Made by a program: the position numbers and the translations under genes. From a virus, in the IMG/VR virus record IMGVR_UViG_3300030103_002448, positions 1-35,420 of that record: a stretch of 35,420 nt of DNA; one strand, given 5' to 3'. The notes beneath the pieces are model-generated. The model was not told the origin of the DNA, ran no database searches, and saw only the letters and a list, made by a program, of their open reading frames with translations. Positions 2,993 to 16,046 of the stretch are shown piece after piece (within the stretch, counting starts at the first letter, position 1; each line of letters starts with the position of its first letter).

Positions 2993-3541
2993 TTAGGGAG
3001 TTCTTTGTGTTGAAGGAGTATCAGGATTACTAGCCATTCCTGCGAATGGGTCAGCAGCAGTTGCTCCATTTACAAAGTTAGGAGGTGTTACCTCGTTTGC
3101 AGTAAGAGTCAAGGTATATCCTTGAAGATCCCCCATTGCACTTCCAGTTACCATTGTTCCTCCAGTAACTTCAGCACCATGTTCACGTCCTACTAAAAGT
3201 AAATTACCGTCAAATGTTTCAACGAAAATATGAGGTCTTCCAAAGGACATTAGTTTAAGTTCTTTGTTATCCTCTTTAGTAAGTTTGTGTAGTGTCAAAT
3301 TCACAACAGATTCAAAGAATGTTGTACCATTCTCTAAAGATGTTTGAATGTTAGTTTCTAAAGAAGAATTACCCTTTACATCGTATGTATGGAAAGTAAA
3401 AGCTCCATCCATATCTGTTACTTCGTCATCAGTTAGGGTAATATTTCCTAAATCTCCGAAGTCAACAAAATGAATTTTTCTAATACCACCTACAGCATCT
3501 TTACAGGGTTTTTTTCTTCCTCCAGTTAAATCACAAGCCAT
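2993..3541 (-). CDS. Probable major tail (tube) protein
   Basis: I choose the start at 3541 (MACDLTGGRKKPCKD), giving 182 residues. The longer frame, starting at 3583, would add 14 residues encoded by the terminator hairpin at 3555-3592. The mid-to-late region has EHGAEVTGGTMVTGSAMGDL followed by QGYTLTLTANE. From memory, this pattern recurs in small major tail or virion proteins next to the capsid gene in environmental and Bacteroidetes siphophages. The rest is beta-rich, with an N-terminal Cys pair. A terminator on each side suggests a separately tuned, high-copy product, as expected for a tube protein. A capsid decoration protein is the main alternative. Confidence 0.6.
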   Translation of the reverse strand: MACDLTGGRKKPCKDAVGGIRKIHFVDFGDLGNITLTDDEVTDMDGAFTFHTYDVKGNSSLETNIQTSLENGTTFFESVVNLTLHKLTKEDNKELKLMSFGRPHIFVETFDGNLLLVGREHGAEVTGGTMVTGSAMGDLQGYTLTLTANEVTPPNFVNGATAADPFAGMASNPDTPSTQRTP

Positions 3542-3554
3542 AATTATAAATATT

Positions 3555-3592
3555 AAAAAAGGGTAGGTAGGCTTTAGGCTCACCCACCCTTT
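3555..3592 (-). terminator. Terminator or attenuator between capsid and tail-tube genes
   Basis: On the minus strand a long stem of up to 15 pairs (AAAGGGTGGGTGAGC against GCCTACCTACCCTTT, with two G-U pairs and one mismatch) is followed by a run of six T. It lies just after the capsid gene stop and ends 14 bases before the ATG at 3541. Because no room for a promoter remains between it and that start, the next gene probably depends on partial read-through. That would set a ratio of capsid to tail-tube transcripts. Confidence 0.8.
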
Positions 3593-6980: not shown

Positions 6981-9344
6981 TTATAATCCTGCGGTTGTTG
7001 CAATATTGCGATCAAGTTCTTGTTGATTTGTCATATCTTTAGCTACGACAAAAGCTCTTAATGGTTTTGTTTGTTGTTCTGATATGGATGCGGCTAATTG
7101 TGATTCTGGAGATGCACCTACAACATTAAAGTCAGGAGCTTCTACATTTCTTGAACCTGAAGACCCTCCTGCACCGCCTCCACTTAAATTCTTACTGTTA
7201 TACTTTGTACTAGCTATAGCTGCTATCTGTGCAGCACCACTTGCTAAAGTTAATGCTTGTGCTATTTGGGCTCTTACAGGGGATGTGGGGTCTCCAATTA
7301 TTAATTGCGATCCATAAGACAACCACCCTGCCTGAATAGTGTCCATAATAACTTTACTTATTTTAAGACCCTGTTCTACTTTCCAAGCCTTTTTATTAGC
7401 TTCTTCTATCTTTTTATCAAATTGCTTTTTAGCTTCTACCTCATCATGACCTGCTGCTACTCTAGCTTCATATTCTTCTCTAGCATTATTTATCTCTATA
7501 TTTTTTCTAGTATCAGATATTCCTTTTATAACACCAACACCTTGTTTATATATTTCTTGAATTTCAGCGAATCTTCTTTTTTGACGAGCTATTTCAGCGT
7601 CTGCTAATTCTTCTTGTAGTTGTGCTAATTCAAGTTCAGCATTTGCTCTTTCTACAGTACCTTCTTTATATATTTTAACTATACCTTTTTGTAATTCTAC
7701 TTGTGATGTCAATTGTCTAATATTAACCTCTTCAGCCTTACTTTGGAATATATCTAAAATACCTGATTGTGCATCCGCTGCTTTAGCTTGAGCTAATTCT
7801 GTTTCATAAGCTGTTTGTAATACTCTTTTAGCTAATTCTTCATCAAGAATAACCCTTCTATCATTAAAGTTCTCATTAATTGCTTCTAATACCTGATTTA
7901 ATTCTATTTCACCATTTATTATAGATTCATTTAGTTCTTTCTTTGAATCTAACACCGCATCATTAAATCCTTTTCTAGCTATTGCTCTTTTCTTTTCATC
8001 TTTTTCTTCTTTAAGGAATCTATCCAACCTTGTTTGTTGCTGTTCTACAAATTCTTGTTGCCTTAAAGCTTGCGTATCTTTAAATACATTAAATCTTACC
8101 CTATATATATTTTTTTGATTAGCCTCCTCCTGTGTTAGTTTAGCTTGTTCGGTTTGAAGAAATCTGTTTAACGAATCTTGTTCTATCTTTTCAATATCCT
8201 TATCTAAATTAAACAATCCTTGTCTGAAATCACTAAATCTAGCAGTTCTGTCTCTTTTACCTGTGCCGCCATTACCTCCATCAGGATCAGCAGTAAGTTG
8301 TTTCTCTATTTCAATTATTTTAGCAACAACTTTTTCATATTCTTCTACTGTACCTTTAGATATCTCTTGAAATCCTTTTAAAATATCTACATCATCTTCA
8401 CCTGTTAAGAATCTAGCAATAAGTCCTTTTTTACCTACAGTTCCTTGTCTTAAAGCTTCAAGCTCTTGAAATATATTAGTATTTTCATCTAGTATTTTTC
8501 TTCTATCTTCTTCTGAATCAGCACTTATAATAGCTTGTTCAGCAGCTCTTATCTTTTCTCTTTTAACAAACAGTTCTTGATTAGCATCTAATAATGCTTC
8601 TAACTCTCCTCTTAATCTTTGTTGACGAATATACTCTTCTACTTGCTTTGTTAATTTCTCTAATGATGTTTTCTGTTTGTCATAACTATCAATAATGCCT
8701 GGAGAAGCTGCTTCTAGTTCCTTTAAAGCATTAAGCCTTGCTTTTTCAGATATATTATTATCTTTTAATACTTCTATATACCCAAGAAGCTCTCTCCTTT
8801 GACTCTGTACAGTTTCTTCTAAATCCTCTAGTGATTTTTCAAAGTCTTCTACTGCTTTTTGATTACCCTTGAAGAAGTTTATAACGTCATTTCCGTAGGT
8901 AATTAACAACTGAATACTAATTAGAAATATTGATTGAGCTGTAAATAAAGCTGCTATAGCTGACCTTAATCCACCAGCAGCATTTGCTGAAGCAGAAAAT
9001 AAACTTACTAATTGACCCAAGTTATTAGCTATAGCTGTAAACCCATAACTAGCATCTGAAGCTAAACGAGCTGATTCTGCTATGATTGCATTGTTCAGTC
9101 CAGCATTGGTTTTCATATTATTTAGCCCTTTTGAAGCATTAAGAGCTTCAGCAGCTAATCCACTAATTTCAGCTTTTGCTTGTAGATTTTTTATTCGCAG
9201 CATTTCTGCTGCTACCATATTATCTTTTTCAGCTTTAGTTAACTTACTTAAATCTTTGACAGCTTTACTAGTTGCTTGAGAAACTTGTTTAGCTCCAACT
9301 TCCTTAACCTCAACACTAATTATTATCTTTTTAGTATCTGCCAT
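6981..9344 (-). CDS. Tail tape measure protein
   Basis: A 787-residue protein, among the longest here, dominated by Lys/Glu/Gln-rich coiled coil (about 150-650). A hydrophobic segment lies around residues 122-155 (AAGGLRSAIAALFTAQSIFL and following), which may insert into the host membrane during DNA entry. The N-terminus resembles tape-measure starts (KIIISVEVKEVGAKQVSQAT), and the C-terminus is Ala/Ser/Gly-rich. The tape measure sets tail length and is ejected before DNA. The overlapping 49-residue gene just upstream may be translationally coupled. Unusually, it lies at the end of the tail module and directly before head genes. Confidence 0.85.
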   Translation of the reverse strand: MADTKKIIISVEVKEVGAKQVSQATSKAVKDLSKLTKAEKDNMVAAEMLRIKNLQAKAEISGLAAEALNASKGLNNMKTNAGLNNAIIAESARLASDASYGFTAIANNLGQLVSLFSASANAAGGLRSAIAALFTAQSIFLISIQLLITYGNDVINFFKGNQKAVEDFEKSLEDLEETVQSQRRELLGYIEVLKDNNISEKARLNALKELEAASPGIIDSYDKQKTSLEKLTKQVEEYIRQQRLRGELEALLDANQELFVKREKIRAAEQAIISADSEEDRRKILDENTNIFQELEALRQGTVGKKGLIARFLTGEDDVDILKGFQEISKGTVEEYEKVVAKIIEIEKQLTADPDGGNGGTGKRDRTARFSDFRQGLFNLDKDIEKIEQDSLNRFLQTEQAKLTQEEANQKNIYRVRFNVFKDTQALRQQEFVEQQQTRLDRFLKEEKDEKKRAIARKGFNDAVLDSKKELNESIINGEIELNQVLEAINENFNDRRVILDEELAKRVLQTAYETELAQAKAADAQSGILDIFQSKAEEVNIRQLTSQVELQKGIVKIYKEGTVERANAELELAQLQEELADAEIARQKRRFAEIQEIYKQGVGVIKGISDTRKNIEINNAREEYEARVAAGHDEVEAKKQFDKKIEEANKKAWKVEQGLKISKVIMDTIQAGWLSYGSQLIIGDPTSPVRAQIAQALTLASGAAQIAAIASTKYNSKNLSGGGAGGSSGSRNVEAPDFNVVGASPESQLAASISEQQTKPLRAFVVAKDMTNQQELDRNIATTAGL

Positions 9345-9480: not shown

Positions 9481-11732
9481 ACTATATCTTTAGCAAATAT
9501 GTTATATAATTCAATTTCTGATTTACCTGTTATAAGATTAGTTGTTATTGAATTAATTCGAAACATCTTATCTTGTATCTTAATCTGATGATTTAATCTA
9601 TAATTAACTAAAATATTTGGAGGAAGAAAAGCTGTTATCTTAAACATTCTTCTAGCAGCGTTAAATACTCCTTCAACATAAGATTTATAAAACTTATTGT
9701 ATAATGAATTACTTGATATATGGTAATTTATTCTATTCCATTCATCAAATTCATTATCAAAGTTTAATTGTACTGTTGGAGCTGTTTGTGCATCACCTTC
9801 ATCACTCCCATTAGAAGGTCTATAGTAATTTGTTATAGATTCTACACTTGTAGAATTATTTACCCAAGCTATACCTGTAGATATAGATGTTTCTCTTACT
9901 CCATAAAACAATAATGGTTTAACTAAAAGAGTATCATAATCTGCTGTCGGAGGATCTACATCTGAATCTGAATTAAATTCACCACCAGCACAATAGCCCC
10001 ATTGGATATCTGTTATTGTACCTGCTGCTCCTGTATCTAACATTCTCTCATATTTAAAATGAGAAAAAGGTGCTTTTATTTCATATTTAGTTCCTCTATC
10101 AATAATATCTGGGAAGTTTCTCCTAACATTGAATTCTCCATTACCAAATATTTCACCAAATTGATTCTCATGGTTTTTCATTAATACTGTATCAGTTTTC
10201 TCAAACTTAAAGTCTATATCAGTAAAAGGTAATGTTGATTCAACTTCGTGTTGTTTTATATCAACATATTTATCTAATGTTATTGTTTGGGTTAGTTGAT
10301 TATTTACAGCATCACTATAAAAATTATCTAGAGTATCCACATATATTTTATCATAATCACTATCAGTAGGATCTTCTATATAATAAGCTGTAAGGTTAAA
10401 TAACTTAAATATCCCAGTTATAAAATCTATAACTTTCATTGAAGGGAATCTTTGATCCATCAATAATTCAAATGAAGTTTGAGGAGATGTAGAAATAGTA
10501 TAGGTTGAATTAATATTAGTACCAGATAAAGGTGAAGATTCTGTTGCTAATGATATATTAGATATAGTTAATGCTGTTTCTGATTTTATTTCTATTTCTA
10601 TATTAACATTAGTAAAAGTAGTAGTCCCCACAGTAGAAAGAAAAAGTATTACTTCATTAGAAGTATTGCCTACTTTAGATACTACAGTCTCTTCTTTATT
10701 TATTACATCTCTTGTTATTATATTGTATTTAACATTTGCATCACTAACATCAAAAGATAAAGTAAATTTAAAAAATCCAGCACCTGCTGTATTTAATGAT
10801 AAAGTAGTTCCTGTTATTGGAGATGCTCCATTATTTATTCTAAAATCAGGACTCGATGAGGTAAACCCAGATAATTTTTTAGTGAATAGATATCCTTCAT
10901 CATCATCTCTATCATTAAATTCACCTTTCTTACTATTTACCCAAAAATATAAATTACTAAAAGTAGACGAACCAAAGAAGTCTCTAGTAAATGTAATTGC
11001 TGGGTATTGATTTTCTATAGCTTCTATTATATGGATTGCTTTAATGGCAGGTTTTAAATCAGTAAATTTTAATCCTCTACCAAAATTATCGTTACGAGGG
11101 CTACTAGAAGTATCTCCACTATAATATAGATTACCATTAAAAGCATTAGGTGTAGTAGAATTTGTATAAGTCTCTGAATTATAAAATAATCTTTTCTTTG
11201 ATGTTATAAGTGGGTATATAATTGCATCAGATTGAGATACTCCATCAACAGTAAAATCAAGACCATTTTGAAAACCATCTTTAACATTAGTATTTGTATA
11301 TTCATGGTTATAGTTTTCTAGATAGGTAAGATCTGATATTTCATCATCTCCAATTAAATCCTTTATAGAAACTGTTTTACCATAAAATATAATATTATAT
11401 GAATTAGGTTTATTATTTTTTAGTTTAACATTATTGATATTAATCTTGCCTTCTCTAAATCTTAAATGATTTATTTCAATAATAGCTTCTCTTTTCTTTC
11501 TAGAATCAAATGCACCACCTGTTATATTGAAATTATAAAAGTGTCTAAATATTTTATTATTAGTATCGGAAGCTGGTACGTTAAATGATTGAGAAAAGTC
11601 AGTAAATATTTTACCTATATCTCTTAAATCTTGTATTTTAGAAGTAAGCTCTATTGTCTCATTAGAGTATAAATCAACTCTATCATAGTTTCCACTATCA
11701 TTTTTTATATATAACTGTACTTTGTTTTGCAT
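9477..11732 (-). CDS. Large tail protein (baseplate/tail-tip candidate)
   Basis: A 751-residue protein upstream of the tape measure. The N-terminal 130 residues (DLYSNETIELTSKIQDLRDI, IFTDFSQSFNVPAS, NKIFRHFYNFNI) follow a pattern I associate with the first domain of tail-tip or baseplate proteins in Bacteroidetes siphophages. The middle is Ser/Thr/Asn-rich and beta-type. The C-terminus (NHQIKIQDKMFRINSITTNL, LITGKSEIELYNI) looks like a hub-type beta domain. Its start overlaps the stop of the upstream tail gene. It probably forms part of the distal tail structure that contacts the cell surface. No enzymatic motif was seen. Confidence 0.6.
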   Translation of the reverse strand: MQNKVQLYIKNDSGNYDRVDLYSNETIELTSKIQDLRDIGKIFTDFSQSFNVPASDTNNKIFRHFYNFNITGGAFDSRKKREAIIEINHLRFREGKININNVKLKNNKPNSYNIIFYGKTVSIKDLIGDDEISDLTYLENYNHEYTNTNVKDGFQNGLDFTVDGVSQSDAIIYPLITSKKRLFYNSETYTNSTTPNAFNGNLYYSGDTSSSPRNDNFGRGLKFTDLKPAIKAIHIIEAIENQYPAITFTRDFFGSSTFSNLYFWVNSKKGEFNDRDDDEGYLFTKKLSGFTSSSPDFRINNGASPITGTTLSLNTAGAGFFKFTLSFDVSDANVKYNIITRDVINKEETVVSKVGNTSNEVILFLSTVGTTTFTNVNIEIEIKSETALTISNISLATESSPLSGTNINSTYTISTSPQTSFELLMDQRFPSMKVIDFITGIFKLFNLTAYYIEDPTDSDYDKIYVDTLDNFYSDAVNNQLTQTITLDKYVDIKQHEVESTLPFTDIDFKFEKTDTVLMKNHENQFGEIFGNGEFNVRRNFPDIIDRGTKYEIKAPFSHFKYERMLDTGAAGTITDIQWGYCAGGEFNSDSDVDPPTADYDTLLVKPLLFYGVRETSISTGIAWVNNSTSVESITNYYRPSNGSDEGDAQTAPTVQLNFDNEFDEWNRINYHISSNSLYNKFYKSYVEGVFNAARRMFKITAFLPPNILVNYRLNHQIKIQDKMFRINSITTNLITGKSEIELYNIFAKDIV

Positions 11733-14233: not shown

Positions 14234-14811
14234 TATTCAGTTTTTATTTCGTAATTATCTCCCTTTTTAATATAACCTGATTTGATAAAAATGTCCTCTA
14301 CATTATCCATCACATCTTGTCCTACAGCTCCTCCAAGAGTATCTAATTTTCCAATAGAAGCTTCTAGAGCCTCCGATATAAAGTTAGTAGGTGCTGTCCC
14401 ATAGAAGCCTATAGAACGTGATATAACACCAGCTAAATTATTTATCTTTTTATCATTCATCGAGACAAACTTACCATTCGCCTCTCGTAGCCTTATAGGT
14501 TTTGCTTTTATCCATTTTGCTATATCTCTTACTGGAGGAGGTTTTTGTCCAGCTTTCCTCCCTTTATCTACAGTAGTAACATAATTAAGAGCTTCTATAT
14601 TAAAAGTTATTTTACCCTCTTCTTCTTTAGGATCTATAGATATATTTCTTCTTAATTGTTTACTAGCATCAATAGGGCTATTAGTATTTCTCCCTCTAGG
14701 ATTCATGGAACGTCTTTTCCTAGAACGACCTATCTCTATCTTTAGTAGTTTTACAATCTCCTGTGAGAAATTATTTAGATAAGATTTAGTATTTTTAAAG
14801 TTGTTAATCAC
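14233..14811 (-). CDS. Neck / tail-completion protein (HK97 gp10-like)
   Basis: A 192-residue basic protein. An N-terminal helix is followed by a charged stretch (RSRKRRSMNPRGR), then SPIDASKQLRRNISIDPKEE, a central beta strand pair ending NYVTTVDKGRKAGQKPPPVR, a WIKAKPIRL motif, and the C-terminal FISEALEASI helix. The order of strand, GRKAG-PP turn and W-I-K motif is typical of gp10-like neck proteins that join head and tail. It overlaps the tail terminator gene upstream by eight bases, which is the expected neighbour. Confidence 0.65.
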   Translation of the reverse strand: MINNFKNTKSYLNNFSQEIVKLLKIEIGRSRKRRSMNPRGRNTNSPIDASKQLRRNISIDPKEEEGKITFNIEALNYVTTVDKGRKAGQKPPPVRDIAKWIKAKPIRLREANGKFVSMNDKKINNLAGVISRSIGFYGTAPTNFISEALEASIGKLDTLGGAVGQDVMDNVEDIFIKSGYIKKGDNYEIKTE

Positions 14812-15286
14812 AAGCAGTTCCTCCGAAAGTTACATTATCATTTCTCATCTCAATACTCATAGTAAGTGACCATCCAGTTAGTAAGTTCTCAAATCTATCT
14901 TCAAACTGACTAGCTGATGGAGTGCCTGATATTTCATACCCTTCATCATTTAAAGAACCCTGTCTAACAGATCCTTGTAATCTATTTATAACAGAAAGCA
15001 TAGTATTTAGAACATCTTGTTTGTTATCTGATAAATATTGTGGGTTATTAGTAGACTGTTTATTATCCTTATGTTCATCTACTATATCCATAGCAATAAC
15101 ATTAAATGTAAAAGTCATTAGTCCTTGACCAAATGAAATATCTGATATTATTAGATGGGCTAATGGGAATATAGTTTGTTTAGATAAGTCTACATCAAAG
15201 ATATCTCCAGATGTAACTGTATTTATAGAATTATCAGATATTAGTGTATTGTATATATTATCTATTAAGTCGTAATATTCTTTCAT
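14804..15286 (-). CDS. Tail terminator (tail-completion) protein
   Basis: A 160-residue alpha/beta protein: N-terminal helix MKEYYDLIDNIYNTL, beta region with VDLSKQTIFPLAHLIISDIS, a strand FTFNVIAMDIVDEHK, helix QDVLNTMLSVINRLQGSV and a final beta section with LLTGWSLTMSIEMRN. This layout is that of small tail terminators which cap the tube when the tape length is reached. The start codon overlaps the stop of the frameshifted chaperone product (TGA inside ATGA). It sits between the chaperone and the neck protein, which is typical. Confidence 0.65.
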   Translation of the reverse strand: MKEYYDLIDNIYNTLISDNSINTVTSGDIFDVDLSKQTIFPLAHLIISDISFGQGLMTFTFNVIAMDIVDEHKDNKQSTNNPQYLSDNKQDVLNTMLSVINRLQGSVRQGSLNDEGYEISGTPSASQFEDRFENLLTGWSLTMSIEMRNDNVTFGGTACD

Positions 15287-15546
15287 CGTTTCATTGATTT
15301 TTTAATCATCATCGCTTCTAATTCGTTTTTCTCCTTTTCAAATACTAAATACATTAAACATTTGTAAAGTGGTTCTTCTGTAACTGTGTCAAACTTTGTG
15401 AGGTCTCCTTTAGCGAGTCCATAAATTGATTGATACCAACCCCATTTTTTTCCAAAGCCTCCTTGAGGTGAGAGGTCTTGACTTTCTTCGCCTGATTCTC
15501 CAAAAAGTTCAGGGAAGCTTTCGATAACTCGATCCCTAAATGATAA
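15283..15546 (-). CDS. -1 frame extension of the tail-assembly chaperone (gpT-like part)
   Basis: This frame is open for 88 codons to a TGA at 15283-15285 but has no ATG until near its end, so it should be reached by frameshifting from the gene at 15354-16046. A slip on the heptamer T TTT TTT gives codon TTA at 15546, then SFRDRVIESFPELFGE, KKWGWYQSIYGLAKGD and PLYKCLMYLVFEKEKNE. The aromatic KWGWYQSIY motif and the following LAKGD are what one expects of the T half of G/GT chaperones, which recruits the tube protein onto the tape measure. The full product would be 254 residues (167 plus 87). No start of its own or alternative function is supported. Confidence 0.82.
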   Translation of the reverse strand, partial: LSFRDRVIESFPELFGESGEESQDLSPQGGFGKKWGWYQSIYGLAKGDLTKFDTVTEEPLYKCLMYLVFEKEKNELEAMMIKKSMKR

Positions 15547-16046
15547 AAAAAAACCACAGCTCCCATAACAACACTTAAAGGCATCTCCCTCATAAGTTCT
15601 TTAACCTCTTCACTAGGACTATAAGGAGCAATAGTATAACTATCTTTTTGGGAGAAATTGACAGGTCTATACAACACAGCCATTACTTTATGCATTTCTT
15701 GCCAATCTCCAATAGAACCTTCTACATCTACATATTCTCCTAAACTCATATCATCTAGTTTAGGTATAAATCCCATATCTACATCTAGAAGCTTGAATCT
15801 TTTAGTTAGTCCCCATTTCTTCTCAAAGGCTTCTTGTATTATTCCTAGTACCTTTTCGAATTCTACTACAGGAATAGACTCCACATCATTAAGGTCAACA
15901 TTACAAAATATTTCAACGAGCTTCTTGTTTAGAAAATCGTTATACTCTTCTCCTTTATTATTATCAGCAATCTTTAAGTATTTCTGATACTGCCCTAAAG
16001 TTATAGACTCTAAAGAAGCTGGTACTGTTAGTTCTATTCTCTTCAT
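15354..16046 (-). CDS. Tail-assembly chaperone (gpG-like), frameshift donor
   Basis: The unshifted product is 230 residues and starts MKRIELTVPASLESITLGQY, with a KKLVEIFCNVDLNDVESIPV segment and a hydrophobic helix at about 157-172 just before the slip site. It is likely to coat the tape measure during tail assembly, with the 254-residue shifted product bridging to the tube protein. The frame-0 tail beyond the slip site (residues 168-230) is Lys/Glu/Leu-rich. Translation of both frames through 15354-15546 means this DNA is coding twice. It is the first gene of the structural operon, after the regulatory region at 16.05-16.7 kb. Confidence 0.75.
   Translation of the reverse strand: MKRIELTVPASLESITLGQYQKYLKIADNNKGEEYNDFLNKKLVEIFCNVDLNDVESIPVVEFEKVLGIIQEAFEKKWGLTKRFKLLDVDMGFIPKLDDMSLGEYVDVEGSIGDWQEMHKVMAVLYRPVNFSQKDSYTIAPYSPSEEVKELMREMPLSVVMGAVVFFYHLGIELSKASLNFLENQAKKVKTSHLKEALEKNGVGINQFMDSLKETSQSLTQLQKNHFTNV
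15545..15555 (-). other. Slippery sequence for -1 frameshifting
   Basis: On the minus strand nine consecutive T lie after GG. Frame-0 codons are GTT TTT TTT TAT (residues 165-168), so bases 15552-15546 form the heptamer T TTT TTT, which allows both tRNAs to re-pair one base back. The -1 frame is blocked by a TAA about 18 codons upstream and stays open downstream to 15283, which limits the shift to this interval. A run of nine identical bases could also allow polymerase slippage. Confidence 0.78.

Follow-up and report, generated by a model that had tools for sequence, protein, structure and literature searches.

A diverse clade of Bacteroidota phages and prophages may set the ratio of the G and GT products of a tail chaperone by programmed slippage of the RNA polymerase on a run of nine or ten T's, which lies inside a dual-coding overlap of ~60 codons, with at least one lineage carrying a ribosomal heptamer instead. 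We give this composite reading an even chance, and its parts differ in strength. That the G-like gene is expressed as two products by way of a frameshift is, given the conserved sequences, almost certain. The two frames, the run, its conservation, and the dual coding can be read directly in the DNA; the slip itself, its level, its ratio, and the role as a chaperone are inferred.

Two overlapping frames of a G-like gene

The window, as we call the whole 35,420-nt stretch of DNA that was analysed, carries the gene on its minus strand, together with the following features:

15354..16046, minus strand: G-like gene, frame-0 product of 230 aa, with a conserved N-terminal domain to about residue 165 followed by a C-terminal tail of its own (ORF; phrog_32199, E 5e-19; AF2 model with a mean pLDDT of 86; homologues)
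15545..15553, minus strand: putative T9 slippage run, with the heptamer T_TTT_TTT at 15546-15552 inside it, in the -1 register (sequence and 369 homologous junctions)
15283..15552, minus strand: -1-frame extension (T-like domain), two Phe codons plus 87 residues and the stop TGA (sequence; conserved in the alignments of relatives)
15403..15450, minus strand: KKWGWYQSIYGLAKGD, the conserved motif of the extension (alignments)
15354..15544, minus strand: dual-coding overlap of the frame-0 C-terminal tail (~62 codons) and the -1 extension, both constrained
15283..16046, minus strand: predicted GT-like fusion product of 254 aa (from the two frames; single-ORF fusions in the relatives L168 and L384)
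14804..15286, minus strand: next gene, 160 aa, phrog_30964, function unknown, named tail terminator in the original prediction (ATGA start/stop overlap; order shared with L109, L167, and L168)

The frame-0 codons across the T9 run are GTT(15554) TTT(15551) TTT(15548) TAT(15545). The original prediction had pointed to T TTT TTT on frame-0 codons of the 230-residue gene, and this heptamer is present, in a run two T's longer than the one named. The sequence also bears out a -1 frame that is open for 87 residues to 15283, with its first ATG at extension residue 65, and an ATGA at 15286-15283, in which the stop TGA (15285-15283) shares bases with the ATG of the neighbouring gene. The 71 bases said to look intergenic correspond to the distance between the two stops, whereas the actual gap from the frame-0 stop to the next gene is 67 bases (15353-15287). 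In the coding sequences of the window there is one run of at least nine T's, that of the G gene, against 0.49 expected under codon shuffling.

Immediately upstream of the G gene, positions 16222-16047 form an AT-rich non-coding stretch with a repeated tatata-type sequence, which may hold a late promoter.

Conservation of the junction among relatives

Relatives were gathered along several routes. Querying IMG/VR with the extension returned 80 relatives, and a second query, made independently from just the N-terminal domain and hence blind to the slip site, returned 80 loci with the same junction, recovering the T run and the extension alike. Scans with diverged members and of bacterial genomes raised the total to 505 loci; E-values from the collection scans are relative to the candidates. 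Identical contigs are counted once, but as close relatives are still included, junction counts do not represent independent events. The collections include incomplete contigs.

Every one of the 369 distinct run-bearing junctions has exactly nine or ten T's, never fewer or more, while in the 0.91 Mb surrounding these homologous sites we found only 53 other runs of at least nine T's. The upstream gene stands in a clear -1 relation to the extension at 365 of the 369, which thus have, in layout, the short product and -1 extension from a slippery site expected of a lambda G/GT system. At three of the remaining four the upstream open frame does not extend far enough for a decision, in one case being truncated by the contig end, and the fourth (L168) is in frame.

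As far as their sequences place them, the run-bearing relatives are highly diverse phages and prophages of Bacteroidota, with contigs from Flavobacteriaceae, Dysgonomonas, and Prevotella genomes and the isolate Nonlabens phages P12024L and P12024S (~30% identity). Genes 40/41 (38/39) of the latter, assigned to phrog_32199 and phrog_38404, are direct homologues that follow the terminase as in the window and combine a T9 run with a -1 extension. They differ from the window gene in a frame-0 tail of just 27 codons past the slip, and in their annotation, which lists two distinct hypothetical proteins and has the second begin inside the extension.

This annotation would fit an extension that is a separate downstream gene, with its own coupled start and no fusion. 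In the window, however, the -1 frame has no ATG, GTG, TTG, or CTG for 66 codons, the first such codon being number 67 of 89, beyond the conserved motif, so there is no ordinary start from which the extension could be made as a protein of its own. Sequence conservation among the relatives begins at the T run, and single-ORF fusions exist (L168 and L384). We rejected the separate gene for its missing start codon ahead of the motif and hold it to be very improbable.

The exceptions fall into two kinds. Both domains lie in one frame in the genome itself in L168, a Dysgonomonas prophage with a T10 run, and L384 is a single-ORF fusion with no T run. The long run is replaced in L396 (identical to L508), and in L509 from a second metagenome, by A_AAT_TTT, a canonical ribosomal heptamer, and by its sequence at least this lineage appears to use the ribosomal route. 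The fused and other-heptamer exceptions indicate that the relatives keep a joined protein. Two further loci, L504 and L506, match weakly or are truncated.

Since the run and the -1 extension are kept across the relatives, with in-frame fusions among the exceptions, the second, frameshifted product is very probably real. The run and the extension occur together in nearly all relatives, those retrieved with the N-terminal domain alone included; homologues that lack the run, or whose -1 frame is interrupted by stops, had been named in the original prediction as contrary evidence and did not appear save for one other-heptamer lineage and one single-ORF fusion.

Homopolymers are error-prone, and a frameshift mutation or a homopolymer assembly error could also split what is truly one ORF, as the in-frame fusions of L168 (T10) and L384 might suggest. 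Hundreds of independently assembled contigs, isolate phages, and prophages nevertheless show one and the same state, and stops are far scarcer in frame 0 past the run than chance would allow. Given the agreement of so many independent contigs and isolates, we rejected such an error, which is scarcely credible.

Three loci deserve separate mention. Dysgonomonas sp. 520 has two related prophage-like regions, one with a T9 run and split frames (L167) and one with a T10 run and fused frames (L168). On a Dysgonomonas contig of 46% GC (L170, positions 2025-2773), a G/GT-like gene with a T9 run has neighbours that resemble cellular genes more than phage ones, and this copy is possibly a remnant or domesticated. 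Flavobacterium phage 6H (L261), a weak fold match, has no T9 at its gene 10044-10927 on the minus strand; an unannotated open frame of 105 codons follows this gene and overlaps its stop by ~10 bases, and the pair is possibly another recoding or coupling arrangement.

Dual coding downstream of the run

The 230-aa product has a real tail of ~62 aa: judged by stop counts and substitution patterns, frame 0 past the slip is itself under selection. Across the first 55 extension codons of 213 loci we counted 57 frame-0 stops against 355 expected from synonymous shuffles of the extension codons, whereas the third frame, used as a control in the same test, had 1196 against 1053 expected. Frame 0 stays open for a mean of 61 codons, against 31. 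This retention past the run implies ~60 dual-coding codons. Of the substitutions, 68% fall on frame-0 codon position 3 before the run and 58% on position 3 of the -1 frame past the frame-0 stop, with a spread between both frames within the overlap. A BLOSUM test of the overlap was discarded, as it counted stops on the condition that their positions were equal and its control frame deviated too, and the codon-shuffle test was used instead.

The earlier account of two products missed the selection on frame 0 past the slip. The overlap is longer than in the SEA-PHAGES training cases, in which the distance from slip to stop averages 26 nt (PMC10885494).

Length of the run and route of slippage

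Ribosomal -1 slippage on the heptamer T_TTT_TTT requires just seven T's. Across the junctions compared here, the conserved feature is the length of the run at nine to ten T's, more than a mere heptamer. The run is kept from 28% to 52% GC, with T9 present also in Bacteroidales loci of 45-52% GC, and it occurs in several codon registers (GTT TTT TTT TAC; ATT TTT TTT TTG; GCT TTT TTT TTG; ATG TTT TTT TTT TAC; GAC TTT TTT TTT CAG). The run classes 2+6+1, 2+6+2, 1+6+2, 0+6+3, 0+6+4, and 1+6+3 all total nine or ten, and Fitch parsimony on a tree of the N-terminal domain places 20 changes of run class, every one of them staying within this range. In all 19 loci without the additional T on the 5' side there is one more T on the 3' side, although some are close relatives (four changes on the tree), so that the independent events number fewer than 19.

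Two routes could join the frames at such a site, and the hallmarks of both are found. A run of about nine or more A's or T's conserved where frames join, as expected of transcriptional slippage, is seen in several registers at the 369 distinct junctions; an in-frame X_XXY_YYZ heptamer, as expected of ribosomal -1 slippage, is seen as T_TTT_TTT in the window and as A_AAT_TTT in L396.

Classical programmed -1 ribosomal frameshifting at U_UUU_UUU would follow the lambda precedent, with the extra T's either incidental or strengthening the slip. The heptamer stands in the right register in the window and in relatives, a canonical heptamer takes the place of the run in one lineage, some of the additional T's fall on codons that are under constraint in one of the two frames, and the in-frame T10 fusion (L168) is a single prophage. 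Frameshifting in G/GT genes is conserved in tailed phages (PMC5009743), and a frequency of 6-7% has been measured for a phage tail chaperone cluster (PMC3711429). Against the ribosomal route, no run-bearing homologue has fewer than nine T's over ~20 changes of run class, even though seven would be enough, and the type of heptamer is nearly constant across a very diverged family. At 271 sites, moreover, replacing T with C at run position idx 8 is silent in both frames and would leave T_TTT_TTC, which none of the 271 uses, while TTC makes up 29% of Phe codons and CTR 32% of CTR plus TTR Leu codons. A search for a nested consensus RNA structure downstream of the run gave none in 32 homologues, and the fold z-scores there lie near 0, as for ordinary folding energies. 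The presence of the heptamer and the apparent reliance of L396 on one make a ribosomal slip possible, but we regard it as a rather doubtful explanation for the family.

The fixed length of nine to ten T's, the lack of a consensus downstream structure, and the ordinary folding energies lead us to favour programmed transcriptional slippage, which on balance is probably the main route. The original prediction of a ribosomal frameshift therefore stands in so far as frame 0 and the -1 extension meet at a conserved slippage site; its assignment to the ribosome is put in doubt by a run that exceeds the heptamer and by the lack of detected downstream structure.

By transcriptional slippage, the RNA polymerase would add a U (or lose two) while copying the nine T's, and part of the mRNA would then carry the second frame fused in frame. 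Most copies would yield the 230-aa frame-0 protein, while a fraction of expression would enter the -1 frame at the T9 run and yield the 254-aa protein, in which the same N-terminal domain is followed not by the frame-0 tail but by the 87-residue, α-helical T-like domain. Slippage of the ribosome on U_UUU_UUU may add to that of the polymerase, or replace it.

Homologous dnaX genes use the transcriptional or the ribosomal route in different bacteria. Shigella mxiE and spa13, Thermus thermophilus dnaX, and IS elements resemble the present gene in that a run of about nine A's or T's joins overlapping frames; they differ from it in that the candidate here is a phage morphogenesis gene, spread over a large clade. 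Bacterial slippage at nine A's or T's has been described with mxiE, spa13, and dnaX as examples (PMC1088944; Atkins et al. PMC5009743), an extended product being made from mxiE and spa13 (PMC1088944; PMC5009743), and Baranov et al. searched for runs of nine A's or T's as slippage sites (PMC1088944). Our literature search for phage tail chaperones with transcriptional slippage returned general works only. In the coding sequences of the window, runs of at least eight A's are depleted (1 vs 7.8 expected under codon shuffling), as are shorter A runs.

Putative role in tail assembly

The lambda G and GT genes are located between those of the major tail protein and the tape measure, and their products, which virions do not contain, bind the proteins of the tape measure and the tail tube at a fixed ratio. 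The G-like gene is likely to be a G/GT-like tail-assembly chaperone of a Bacteroidota phage, a reading that draws on its layout, its neighbours, and one weak structural match. As with gpG and gpGT in lambda, two products in a set ratio would bridge the tape measure and tail tube proteins. The comparison can be set out as follows:

(i) As in lambda G/GT and its HK97-type homologues, a single gene would encode both a short product in frame 0 and a longer -1 fusion. The slippery site precedes the second domain, and the gene lies in the structural/tail region of the genome, both as in lambda.

(ii) Unlike that of lambda, the site is a run of nine to ten T's, and frame 0 runs on for ~60 codons past the slip, under selection.

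(iii) Homology to gpG or the T domain is not detectable in either sequence or fold, nor was a match of either sort to HK97-type chaperones obtained.

(iv) The gene follows the terminase block, whereas that of lambda sits between the tail tube and tape measure genes.

Sequence searches of Pfam, PHROG, and PDB assigned no function to the G-like gene or its extension, although one family member gave a weak Phage_TAC_7 match (E 0.043). AlphaFold2, run without the Nonlabens row in the alignment, predicts a confident N-terminal domain, with a mean pLDDT of 86 over the G protein and a long helix running through the slip site. The extension is modelled as all-helical at a mean pLDDT of 80, the other four models reaching 57-66. 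Foldseek and VIA searches against the PDB turned up no convincing hit with the G model and, with the extension model, no chain, which is not proof of a new fold. Among BFVD models, the matches were many uncharacterised phage proteins and, weakly, an annotated tail assembly chaperone (E 0.04, probability 0.96). The KWGWY core of the KKWGWYQSIYGLAKGD motif is invariant or nearly so in the alignments of relatives. The motif had been taken as typical of lambda-type T domains; it belongs instead to the present family and matches no named family or solved structure.

The G/GT assignment thus keeps its layout, its neighbours, and a weak structural hit, but lacks a direct match in sequence or fold. 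A frameshifting, dual-coding phage gene with some other role would account for the absence of a matching solved structure or named family, and for the distance from the tape-measure candidate of the window. The neighbours argue against it, as does the G/GT-like layout. The gene adjoins conserved connector/tail-like genes, and the downstream order of G/GT, a phrog_30964-like gene, and a gp10-like gene is common to the window, L109, L167, and L168; in L171, a tape-measure match lies directly upstream of G/GT. With the weak match to an annotated chaperone added, another role seems unlikely.

In the window itself, the G gene comes after the terminase block and five genes before a 787-aa tape-measure candidate at 6981-9344, with a tail-tube candidate at 2993-3583, the labels gp10-like, tape-measure, and tail-tube for window genes being our reading of the sequences and not database assignments. 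The order of genes in the window is unusual, in that tail-like genes follow the terminase block and are followed in turn by head genes (protease, scaffold-like, capsid-like, and portal).

Implications

The two-product strategy of tail chaperones is known as a ribosomal one in lambda-like phages. If the reading proposed here is true, the same strategy can run at the level of transcription, with the length of the run as its tuning knob. It would account for many unannotated or split 'hypothetical' genes (phrog_32199 and phrog_38404) in marine and other Bacteroidota phages, and the natural series of T9, T10, in-frame T10, A_AAT_TTT, and single ORF would allow the study of how recoding mechanisms replace one another.
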